Origin: Brachyspira innocens ATCC 29796
GTDB lineage: Bacteria; Spirochaetota; Brachyspiria; Brachyspirales; Brachyspiraceae
Reading direction: 5' to 3'
Assembly: GCF_000384655.1 (NCBI RefSeq)
Contig: NZ_ARQI01000117.1
Location: 1 to 64,000, forward strand
Length of the DNA stretch: 64,000 nt
Shown here: positions 17,843 through 21,299 of the stretch, in pieces
How positions within the stretch are numbered: position 1 is the stretch's first letter
How the letters are laid out: each line of letters begins with the position of its first letter
Notes under the pieces: generated by a model
The model's database searches: none
What the model saw: only the letters and a program-made list of their open reading frames with translations
Told to the model about the DNA's origin: nothing
Program-made: the position numbers and the translations under genes

Positions 17843-17908
17843 TTTACACTTTTTGTAATCAAAAATTTTACATTTTTTGTAAATACAATATTGACAGTTT
17901 CTGTAAAC
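17843..17908 (+). promoter_or_regulatory. Three operator-like palindromes at exact 24-bp spacing
   Basis: Three 18-bp sites begin at 17843, 17867 and 17891, each 24 bp from the last. Sites 1 and 2 are TTTACACTTTTTGTAATC and TTTACATTTTTTGTAAAT; site 3 is TTGACAGTTTCTGTAAAC. All follow T-T-(T/G)-A-C-A, six spacer bases, T-G-T-A-A, so they are imperfect inverted repeats. The third overlaps the -35 box of the promoter for the HTH gene. The likely reading is cooperative binding and autorepression by that HTH protein. The remaining 17557-17842 sequence shows nothing else. Confidence 0.75.
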
Positions 17909-17918
17909 AGACTATAAT
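17891..17918 (+). promoter_or_regulatory. Near-consensus sigma-70-type promoter
   Basis: TTGACA (17891-17896) and TATAAT (17913-17918) are both exact consensus boxes separated by 16 bases, followed by about 32 bases to the HTH gene's ATG. The -35 box is part of the third operator-like palindrome, so a protein bound there would block RNA polymerase. So strong a promoter under so many operator copies implies tight, inducible control. Confidence 0.7.
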
Positions 17919-17950
17919 AAAAATATATAAAAAATAAAGCGAATAAACAA

Positions 17951-18451
17951 ATGGAAAACAAACTATTAAGAGAAAAAATAAAAGATCTTGATATTAGAAT
18001 AATGGACTTAGCCAAATATATGGAAATGTCAAGACCTACAATTTATAAATATATAGAAATGTACGAAACTGGACATCGTAATGAAATAGAATCAAAAGTT
18101 TTAACTGTTTTTGAATATATTGATAATAATAAAAATATAGGCAAGACTAATGTTATAAAGTTTATATTAGAGAATATATCAAAAATAGAAGAAAATATCA
18201 GCGAAACAGAAAAGAAAAAAATACAAATAAGAAATTTATTAAAGCATCAAAATAAAACAAAAGAAGATTTTATATATCTTATTTCAGAAGATAATTTCTT
18301 TGACCCTATTTTAGATTATTTGATAAAATGCAGAAATATAGCTGATAAAAAAATCACAGAAGAAGAATACGAGTTTATAAAGCCTTTAGAAGAACTGTAT
18401 AAAACTCAAGGATTTAAAATAAAAATAAATAAAAAAAGGAGCGATAAATGA
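17951..18451 (+). CDS. Small HTH protein, putative autorepressor of the OLD operon
   Basis: The 166-aa protein has an N-terminal helix-turn-helix. Residues about 8-35 (KIKDLDIRIMDLAKYMEMSR followed by PTIYKYIEMYETG) match a resolvase/TetR-like recognition motif. The rest is helical and charged, with EENISETEKKKIQIRNLLKHQ suggesting a coiled coil for dimerisation. I know no named family for the C-terminal part. It is the first gene of a compact operon. Its last codon overlaps the start of the ATPase gene (ATGA), which implies translational coupling. Its own ribosome binding site is poor. Given three phased palindromes over its promoter, autoregulation is the simplest reading; it might alternatively sense the signal that triggers the nuclease. 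Confidence 0.7.
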   Translation: MENKLLREKIKDLDIRIMDLAKYMEMSRPTIYKYIEMYETGHRNEIESKVLTVFEYIDNNKNIGKTNVIKFILENISKIEENISETEKKKIQIRNLLKHQNKTKEDFIYLISEDNFFDPILDYLIKCRNIADKKITEEEYEFIKPLEELYKTQGFKIKINKKRSDK

Positions 18452-20421
18452 ATAGAAGATTTTTAAAAATTCAAAACTTTAGAAATATAGGAGTTACAAA
18501 AGACTTGGAAGAATACCAAACACTTTATTTAAATAACACTTTGAATAAAGATGAAATGGGCGAGCTTATAATACTTATAGGCGAAAACAATGTCGGTAAA
18601 TCAAATATATTAGATGCTGTTAATGTAATAAGACCTACAGAAAATATTAAAAGTATAAATTTAAAAAAAGATATACCCGACTTTATGGACTATGAAGATG
18701 CAAAACCTAAAATAAAACTTATTTATGCTGATGAAAATGAAAGCCAAGAGATAGAATATTTTTTAGATGAAAATTTAAATGTTAATTATAATTCTAATTT
18801 ACAAAAAGAGTATAAGACTATTAAAACCCAAAAAACTGTAAAAGGCAAAGAATTTGATATAGAAGCAGTAAAAGCAGAATTTAAGAATAAATTTAATTTA
18901 TATGAATCACAAAGAAATACTTTTTCTCAAAGAAATTATTCTTATGAAAGTAGTATCAAGAATATTAGCAATAAATATTATAATATGGTAATACATAATA
19001 AATCATTAGATGAACTTGTAGCTATATATGAAGAGTTAAAAAAACTATATTCAAATTTCGTTTCAGAATATAATAACTACTATTCTCCAAAAATAGAAGA
19101 AAAAGAATTTTATGATTTAAGAAAAATAGCATCCAAAGATACAGTTATAGAAGCAGAAGAAACTATAGAAGTACCTAAAGATATTATTAAAGAAAAGTAT
19201 GATATTAACTTTATACCTAATATTATTTATTATAAAGAAGAAGAGGTTAAAGACAGCGATTTAGTTACTACTCCTGAAAACATTAAAAATTCTAAATTCT
19301 TTAATGCATTATTCAAAGCTATAGGAAAAAATATCAGCACTGTAGAAACAGCCTATGAAAAAGCAAAAAAAGCGCCCGGACATAAAAATCAATATCAAAA
19401 CACAATAAATCAGAATCTTAAAGATATAGTAAGCAAAAAATTTAATGAATTATACTTTCAGGATTTGAATACTCAGGAATATAATTTCTATATCACTTTA
19501 GAAAAAGATCAAATATATTTATCTATGGAAAAAAACGGAAATATCATTTTATTAGAGCAGCAGTCTGTAGGCTTCAAATGGTTTTTTAATTTCTTCTTTA
19601 ATTTCTTATACTCTAATGAATTAAATCCAGGTGATATAGTTTTGATGGATGAGCCAGAAATACATTTATCAATACCGGGTAGAAGAGATTTAAGAAATTT
19701 TATAAAAAAGTTTGCAAGAAATCATGGTATAACATTTATAATTACTACTCATAATCCTTCATTTATAGATGTTGATTATTTAGATGAGCTTAGAATTGTA
19801 AGATTCAAAAAAGATAAAATAGGCGTTGAAATACAGAATGATTTTTCTGCTATAGGTGAAGATGAAGTTGATACATTAAATGAAATAGTAGACGGTTTCG
19901 GAGTGCTTCATAGAGATATAATAACCAATCCTAATAATAAAGTAATATTTGTTGAAGGGCTTATGGATTATAATTATCTTACAGCTTTCAAGAAATTAAA
20001 AGAAGCAAAAGAAAATAAAAAAATTAATTTAGTATTTCTTCCTATTCATGGACTTGGAAAAGATGATAAGGAGATGAACAATAAATTAAAACAGTTGGTA
20101 CAGTTTAGGGAGGCTATTATATTGACAGATAGCGATGAGAGGGCAAATTTATTCAAAAAAGCTTCAGAATCAAATACTTTAATGAAAGAGAGATTAACAG
20201 TATTTCAATTAAAAGAAGCGGATCAATCTTTCAAAGAAATAGAAAGTCTATTCAGTGATAATGACAAAGGAAGATACAGAGAAATGATACAAAATAAAAG
20301 CGGAAGCCTTTCTTCATTATTCAAAAATAATATTTTTAAAAGAGAATTAGATGAACAGACTATAAATAATTTTAATAAACTTCTTGACTATTTAAGCGAG
20401 ATGCTATTAACTAATAAGTAA
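18448..20421 (+). CDS. OLD-family ATPase/TOPRIM nuclease
   Basis: The 657-aa protein has the layout of OLD (overcoming lysogenisation defect) nucleases. An N-terminal SMC/RecF-like ATPase has Walker A GENNVGKSN at residues 45-53. A long helical insertion follows (about 100-270). Next come the second ATPase half with Walker B VLMDEPEIHLSIPG near 397-410 and the switch TTHNPSF. The C-terminal TOPRIM domain has VIFVEGLMD (Glu503) and LTDSDERA (Asp561, Asp563), the metal-binding acidic residues of the fold. OLD proteins include phage-defence nucleases such as P2 Old and Gabija GajA. No UvrD-like GajB partner follows; the neighbours are an HTH protein before and an 80-aa protein after. AGGAG lies 6 bases before the ATG. 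Confidence 0.88.
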   Translation: MNRRFLKIQNFRNIGVTKDLEEYQTLYLNNTLNKDEMGELIILIGENNVGKSNILDAVNVIRPTENIKSINLKKDIPDFMDYEDAKPKIKLIYADENESQEIEYFLDENLNVNYNSNLQKEYKTIKTQKTVKGKEFDIEAVKAEFKNKFNLYESQRNTFSQRNYSYESSIKNISNKYYNMVIHNKSLDELVAIYEELKKLYSNFVSEYNNYYSPKIEEKEFYDLRKIASKDTVIEAEETIEVPKDIIKEKYDINFIPNIIYYKEEEVKDSDLVTTPENIKNSKFFNALFKAIGKNISTVETAYEKAKKAPGHKNQYQNTINQNLKDIVSKKFNELYFQDLNTQEYNFYITLEKDQIYLSMEKNGNIILLEQQSVGFKWFFNFFFNFLYSNELNPGDIVLMDEPEIHLSIPGRRDLRNFIKKFARNHGITFIITTHNPSFIDVDYLDELRIVRFKKDKIGVEIQNDFSAIGEDEVDTLNEIVDGFGVLHRDIITNPNNKVIFVEGLMDYNYLTAFKKLKEAKENKKINLVFLPIHGLGKDDKEMNNKLKQLVQFREAIILTDSDERANLFKKASESNTLMKERLTVFQLKEADQSFKEIESLFSDNDKGRYREMIQNKSGSLSSLFKNNIFKRELDEQTINNFNKLLDYLSEMLLTNK

Positions 20422-20441
20422 ATATAAAGAGGAGAAATAAA

Positions 20442-20684
20442 ATGACTAAAATATTAAAATTTAATAATGCTATTTTAAATTTAGACAATTTAGACGTTAT
20501 ACAAAAATTTGCAGATAATGCTTATGACTTATATTTTACTACATGCTTAGTACGAGTTCAACTTACTGAAGAAGAATTTCAATATCTAACAGAGTTTTTA
20601 AAAAGCGATTTTAAATTCCATGAAATTAATAAAGATATTCATCAGCTTTTTGACAATAATGAAAGTATTCATAATATGATATAA
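20442..20684 (+). CDS. Small 80-aa protein at the end of the OLD operon
   Basis: Function not recognised. The protein begins with alternating hydrophobic strands (TKILKFNNAILNLDNLDVIQ and YDLYFTTCLVRVQL), followed by a helix (TEEEFQYLTEFLKS) and a polar tail. This resembles small beta-beta-alpha adaptor-like proteins. It starts 20 bp after the nuclease stop with a good ribosome binding site (GAGGAG) and ends before a hairpin terminator. It is very likely part of the same transcript. A role as partner, inhibitor or trigger of the nuclease is an inference from position only. Confidence 0.75.
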   Translation: MTKILKFNNAILNLDNLDVIQKFADNAYDLYFTTCLVRVQLTEEEFQYLTEFLKSDFKFHEINKDIHQLFDNNESIHNMI

Positions 20685-20718
20685 AAATATTAAAAAATAC
20701 TCAAAAAAATATAAAAGT

Positions 20719-20742
20719 GACTGTTTATTACAGTCCTTTTTT
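20719..20742 (+). terminator. Intrinsic terminator of the OLD operon
   Basis: GACTGT and ACAGTC form a 6-bp stem with a 5-base loop, followed directly by CCTTTTTT. It closes the three-gene unit and sets its right boundary. Confidence 0.85.
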
Positions 20743-20876: not shown

Positions 20877-21299
20877 ATGAAAAGAAATCTTTTTATTATT
20901 TTCACATTATTATTAACAGCAGTTATGAGCAATGCTCAAACAGCAAAAACCGAATCATACGAACTTGACAATATAAAAGTTGTGGGTAAAAACGGATTAG
21001 CACTTAATGACTTTATATCATCACTTAATGCTGACCCTAACATAGTATTAGTCGATGCTAGAACACCAGAAGAGATTAAAGAAACAGGAATTATAAAAAA
21101 TGCTGTAAACATCGACTACAGAGCTAAAGGCTACAGCAAAAAATTATTATCATTAGACAAAAACAAAAAATATATGTTTTACTGCAAAACAGGAGGACGC
21201 TCTGGAAAAACTGTTCAGTATATGCTTGATAACGGATTTAAAAACGTTAACTATCTAAAAGATGCAGGATACATAGAACTTTCAGCTGCTTTAAAATAA
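20877..21299 (+). CDS. Periplasmic rhodanese-like sulfurtransferase
   Basis: The 140-aa protein has a signal peptide (MKRNLFIIFTLLLTAVMSNA) and a single rhodanese domain. Landmarks are VLVDARTPEEIKETGIIKNA, then the active-site loop YCKTGGRSG with the catalytic Cys, then MLDNGFKNVNYLKDAG. Single-domain exported rhodaneses carry persulfide sulfur; the partner is unknown. The start is placed at the ATG after AGGGAG, which restores a clean signal peptide. An upstream in-frame start would add 22 residues that hide it. It is monocistronic, with its own terminator. Confidence 0.88.
   Translation: MKRNLFIIFTLLLTAVMSNAQTAKTESYELDNIKVVGKNGLALNDFISSLNADPNIVLVDARTPEEIKETGIIKNAVNIDYRAKGYSKKLLSLDKNKKYMFYCKTGGRSGKTVQYMLDNGFKNVNYLKDAGYIELSAALK

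Follow-up and report, generated by a model that had tools for sequence, protein, structure and literature searches.

The window analysed here is a 64,000-nucleotide stretch of the Brachyspira innocens ATCC 29796 genome. Its segment 17843-20742 (contig C117 of G000) holds, all on the + strand, three operators, a gene for a 166-aa HTH protein (17951-18451), a gene for a 657-aa OLD-family ABC-ATPase/TOPRIM protein (18448-20421), an 80-aa ORF (20442-20684), and an intrinsic terminator-like hairpin followed by a T run (20719-20735). The HTH and OLD ORFs overlap by ATGA, the former ending at 18451 and the latter starting at 18448. A preliminary description of this DNA had proposed a candidate defence operon of an HTH protein, an OLD nuclease coupled to it by the ATGA overlap, a small protein, and a terminator; all of these elements were found at the locus, and the identities of the HTH regulator and the OLD-family nuclease were upheld.

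The family of the HTH protein is conserved but falls below database thresholds: no match above the curated cutoffs of Pfam or NCBIfam was obtained, and the match in PADLOC is weak. Its AlphaFold model is all-helical (mean pLDDT 84), and a fold search with this model against solved structures returned no significant match; the weak, non-significant matches include HigA antitoxins. The helical C-terminal part of the protein is conserved, and within the putative recognition helix SRPTIYKYIEM (residues 27-37; 18029-18061) S27, R28, and T30 are invariant across phyla.

The OLD protein matches AAA_15 (E=3e-17) and shows the architecture that defines its family, an N-terminal ABC ATPase with Walker A and B motifs and a C-terminal TOPRIM acidic motif. 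Among 38 homologues, the key residues of Walker A (GENNVGKSN, residues 45-53; 18580-18606) and Walker B (IVLMDEP, residues 397-403; 19636-19656) are invariant (G45, N47, G50, and K51 in the first, D401, E402, and P403 in the second), as are E503, D507, and E599 of the TOPRIM domain (residues about 498-600; 19939-20247), in which D561 and D563 of the D561-x-D563 motif are at least 90% conserved. The best PDB fold match of the AlphaFold model (mean pLDDT 83) is the T. scotoductus OLD nuclease 6p74 (E=1.9e-12), and because the global TM-score is low (0.28), probably owing to domain flexibility, this match reflects local fold similarity. With its catalytic motifs intact, the protein is predicted to be an active nuclease. 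Residues 101-243 (18748-19176) form a largely helical insert of the ATPase that is hypervariable, with 40% identity to the G017 protein compared to 98% across the C-terminal 217 residues. The dN/dS of the insert is 0.64 against 0.18-0.20 elsewhere in the gene in the comparison with G017, and 0.99 against 0.17-0.18 in the comparison with G002; because dS is raised in the insert too, these values could partly reflect recombination or cassette exchange, or errors of alignment. Together with the patchy spread of the gene, this hypervariability looks like the evolution of immunity genes.

Upstream of the HTH gene, the operator consensus TTTACA-N5-TGTAAA is present in three copies of 17 bp each, separated by 7-bp gaps: O1 (17843-17859; TTTACACTTTTTGTAAT), an 11/12 match conserved 5' of the HTH gene in Brachyspira; O2 (17867-17883; TTTACATTTTTTGTAAA), a 12/12 palindrome whose motif recurs across phyla; and O3 (17891-17907; TTGACAGTTTCTGTAAA), an 11/12 match whose left half is the -35 box. 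The starts and the 24-bp step reported for these palindromes in the preliminary description are therefore correct, and the reported length of 18 bp is corrected to 17 bp. The promoter said to overlap the third palindrome is indeed there: a sigma70-type TTGACA-16-TATAAT (17891-17918) scores 12/12 and ranks top of 41 candidates in the region. A chance origin of the operators is excluded, as the best site outscores 200/200 dinucleotide shuffles, the genome holds a single tandem array, and this array recurs in related species. Thirteen other single-site matches are found elsewhere in the genome, and three isolated perfect TTTACA-N5-TGTAAA palindromes (G000:C90:27637, C121:59935, and C129:132847) may be further targets of the HTH regulator or chance occurrences. 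As read from the sequences, the arrays of G019 and G002 have one 24-bp unit fewer and the promoter is still present, because the TTTACA half of the next operator takes the -35 position with the same 16-bp spacing.

The 24-bp step had been taken to favour cooperative binding. At about 2.3 helical turns, the operators do not lie on the same helix face, and same-face phasing is ruled out, 24 bp not being a multiple of 10.5. In phage lambda OR, 17-bp operators separated by gaps of about 7 bp are bound cooperatively, and because the sites and gaps here match that geometry, cooperative binding of the HTH protein to the three operators is plausible. The parallel with OR and its repressor CI is one of working principle only: both comprise three operators of this size and spacing with promoter overlap, whereas no lysogeny switch is involved here, the HTH protein has no significant fold match, and the likeness lies in operator geometry alone.

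Within Brachyspira, OLD relatives are present in 21/26 genomes and intact HTH genes, each with the operator, in 12/26, a truncated HTH gene being present in G017. Every HTH gene adjoins an OLD gene or an OLD remnant. Whether the palindromes travel with the operon had been raised as a check, and they do accompany the HTH gene: of 31 genomes searched for the tandem array, nine have it, and these are exactly the ones with an intact HTH gene. Solo OLD genes lacking both HTH and operator are also common in the genus, indicating that the HTH regulator is not obligatory. The conserved trio of HTH, OLD, and 80-aa protein envisaged earlier did not hold up, as a search of 19 Brachyspira genomes turned up the 80-aa gene in 2 of them, together with a decayed copy, and at the remaining loci OLD has no such neighbour. 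The 80-aa protein is thus ruled out as a module component on grounds of conservation, and its ORF is a local passenger.

Several Brachyspira copies are degraded. OLD is internally deleted in G019, and in G017 the operators and the HTH N-terminus are partly deleted or lost and the OLD frame is intact; the promoter of G017 may be gone as well. In G016, all that is left upstream of the rhodanese gene is a remnant of the OLD C-terminus together with a broken 80-aa gene (L213:3848-4042). An interrupted OLD copy in G024 contains an assembly gap and was not counted among the decay cases. In many Brachyspira species the OLD gene holds its position beside rhodanese and 5'-nucleotidase genes. Rhodanese-like genes repeatedly adjoin OLD genes in this genus (20880-21299 in the window; L057, L059, and L055), a paralogous OLD and rhodanese pair lies on contig C129 of the same B. 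innocens genome, and the rhodanese-adjoining site may be an insertion hotspot.

Beyond Brachyspira, the OLD alignment alone was scanned against about 85,000 species genomes, yielding 48 loci in Helicobacter, Campylobacter, Clostridia, Treponema, Fibrobacter, Moraxella, and archaea, as well as in Brachyspira itself. A relative of the HTH protein, detected with the Brachyspira HTH profile, immediately precedes OLD in 30 of these 48. According to the preliminary description, nuclease homologues occurring without the two small genes in most genomes would refute it, and this applies in part: solo OLDs without HTH are common in Brachyspira, although across phyla the HTH-OLD pair accounts for the majority of close relatives. 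Whole-genome searches with a broader HTH alignment recovered 40 full-length HTH genes outside Brachyspira, and OLD is directly downstream in 39/40 (Helicobacter, Clostridia, Treponema, Fibrobacter, Moraxella, and archaea), some of these genomes being closely related, so that they do not represent 40 independent cases. The exception, L159, has neither OLD downstream nor an operator. Gaps between the two genes are mostly from -4 to +22 bp, and distances among the HTH proteins track those among the OLD proteins (Mantel r 0.71 outside Brachyspira; 0/5000 permutations as high), as shared descent alone would also produce. The pair is nevertheless rare. An HTH match was found in 21/121 Helicobacteraceae genomes (in three of which it is broken or runs off a contig) and in 4/390 genomes of one archaeal phylum, and the single full match in a Clostridia-class sample of 391 is the seed itself. 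The OLD tree mixes phyla and requires at least seven changes of HTH presence, which, with the decay in G019, G017, and G016, fits an accessory, horizontally moving gene.

The strongest evidence for an HTH-OLD module is the conservation of the operator. Outside Brachyspira, a site matching at least 11/12 positions lies upstream of the HTH gene in 34/40 loci, compared to 0/226 control regions upstream of other ORFs from loci of this kind. Where distinct OLD genes have no intact HTH gene, such a site is missing upstream in 20 out of 21. The one exception is archaeal (L100), with a perfect operator before OLD (L100:4879-4895) and no HTH gene found in the genome assembly. For a local regulator, retention of an operator from Spirochaetes to archaea is unusual. 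Where the recognition helix departs from SRPT, the palindrome differs as well: SRAT in L102 pairs with TATACA-N5-TGTATA and SRTT in L095 with TGAACG-N5-TGTTCA, both sites keeping the 17-bp form. This joint change of helix and site, seen in two cases only, suggests that the HTH protein reads the operator palindrome. The overlap of the operator with the -35 box suggests repression rather than activation, and from this overlap, together with the co-inheritance of operator and HTH gene, we infer that the HTH protein autorepresses the operon, a reading with good sequence support.

Location in a defence island, raised as a check in the preliminary description, was not borne out. Among 138 flanking ORFs outside Brachyspira, nine PADLOC models were matched by one ORF each (Mokosh, MAD3, DEDDh, and candidate families), Pfam assigned the neighbours mainly to metabolic or housekeeping genes, and no enrichment beside other defence genes is evident. 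No record of the HTH protein was found in phage or plasmid collections, so that carriage of the module by these elements was rejected, and scans of viral contigs with the HTH and OLD alignments gave no matches. Two records labelled 'Helicobacter phage' (L214 and L215) contain a fragmented OLD among chromosomal plsX, KASIII synthase, and mrp genes; as these fragments sit among chromosomal genes, they are no evidence of phage carriage, and the prophage boundaries look wrong.

OLD enzymes have been classed by gene context as single genes, Gabija, retron, and PARIS (PMC10568477, PMC12796447). Gabija (Class 2, GajA and GajB) likewise has an OLD nuclease in a two-gene operon, and weak, partial matches to GajA profiles were obtained; as stated in the preliminary description, GajB is missing, with no such helicase in the window or among the 138 neighbouring ORFs outside Brachyspira, and membership is ruled out by the lack of an adjacent UvrD-like GajB. 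A retron OLD (Class 3) is ruled out because no reverse transcriptase occurs among the window neighbours or the PADLOC matches of neighbours, and PARIS (Class 4) because AriA and AriB separate the ATPase and TOPRIM that are here joined in one 657-aa chain. WonAB of V. cholerae (PMC12137116) also has an OLD-like ABC ATPase encoded in a two-gene operon, which follows a putative regulator, but its nuclease is a separate PD-(D/E)xK protein, whereas TOPRIM is fused to the ATPase here; with this defining partner absent, membership of WonAB is ruled out. Cran1 (Class 5, Sulfolobales), which comes from one of eleven previously uncharacterised OLD clades, is likewise an OLD protein in a two-gene operon, but it is partnered by a membrane protein and seems to be essential, in contrast to the HTH partner and accessory genes described here (PMC12796447). 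The HTH-OLD group may belong among the uncharacterised bacterial and archaeal OLD clades that the same study lists.

Neither Pfam, NCBIfam, and PADLOC nor the open-licence papers searched yielded a description of the HTH-OLD pair, in keeping with the earlier statement that no described system with this layout was known; an earlier description elsewhere is possible. HTH-OLD is a real, conserved, and previously unlabelled module with a cross-phylum operator, and from its sequence features it is best read as an OLD nuclease of a new context class, its conserved regulator and operator marking out a separate OLD group that spans phyla. To our knowledge, few functions have been proven for solo OLDs of bacteria.

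Of the roles considered for the module, defence seems the likeliest. The account that we favour, and hold to be reasonably probable, is a two-gene module of an autorepressing HTH protein and an ATP-gated TOPRIM nuclease with an invader-sensing variable insert. A dimeric HTH autorepressor would occupy the TTTACA-N5-TGTAAA sites beside or over the -35 box and keep the operon low, the variable insert of the ATPase would probably sense a feature of a phage or other invader, and the OLD nuclease would then cut nucleic acid. With expression tightly autorepressed, the host would be shielded from its own nuclease, and induction would allow a burst of synthesis; the module may thus offer a route to how a potentially self-harming nuclease stays silent. 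Far more tentatively, the pair might be an autonomous immune module of bacteria and archaea, a sixth OLD context class, in which the repressor is part of sensing and an infection cue frees HTH from the operators or from OLD, arming the nuclease.

A toxin-antitoxin-like pair, in which HTH would repress the operon and also neutralise OLD by binding, and in which loss of HTH would free a toxic nuclease, strikes us as unlikely. The regulator-first gene order, the tight coupling of the genes, and the conserved helical C-terminal part of HTH, with HigA among its weak, non-significant fold matches, would suit such a pair, but many Brachyspira genomes keep an OLD gene in the absence of HTH, and the OLD frame is intact in G017 despite the partial deletion of HTH and operators (and perhaps loss of the promoter), whereas a type II antitoxin is kept wherever its toxin is present. 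Less probable again is a housekeeping enzyme for DNA processing or chromosome maintenance, like archaeal Cran1, with the repressor for dosage control. In its favour are the constant place beside rhodanese and 5'-nucleotidase genes in many Brachyspira species, the lack of defence islands around the loci, and HTH-domain relatives upstream of Mre11-like genes in archaea, but an essential gene would not be expected to show patchy presence, decayed or lost copies, a hypervariable insert, and a phyletic pattern that crosses domains. Class 1 OLDs (P2 Old, T. scotoductus OLD 6p74, and E. coli YbjD) likewise hold ATPase and TOPRIM in one chain, lie mostly outside defence islands, and provide the best PDB fold match, but they are defined as single genes (PMC10568477), whereas OLD here comes with its own conserved HTH gene and operator. 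That an ordinary Class 1 gene fell by chance behind an unrelated regulator is very improbable despite the frequency of solo OLD homologues in Brachyspira, being contradicted by the recurrence of the same HTH family and operator with OLD in several phyla.

Relatives of the HTH domain are also found apart from OLD. Three HTH-only loci (L146, L175, and L177) carry a 12/12 TTTACA-N5-TGTAAA operator without OLD. In archaeal L174, L176, and L178, proteins of ~200 aa combine a related HTH domain with a different C-terminal part, and the genes directly downstream resemble Mre11/SbcD by sequence motif. The same HTH domain and operator may also control Mre11-type nuclease operons in archaea.
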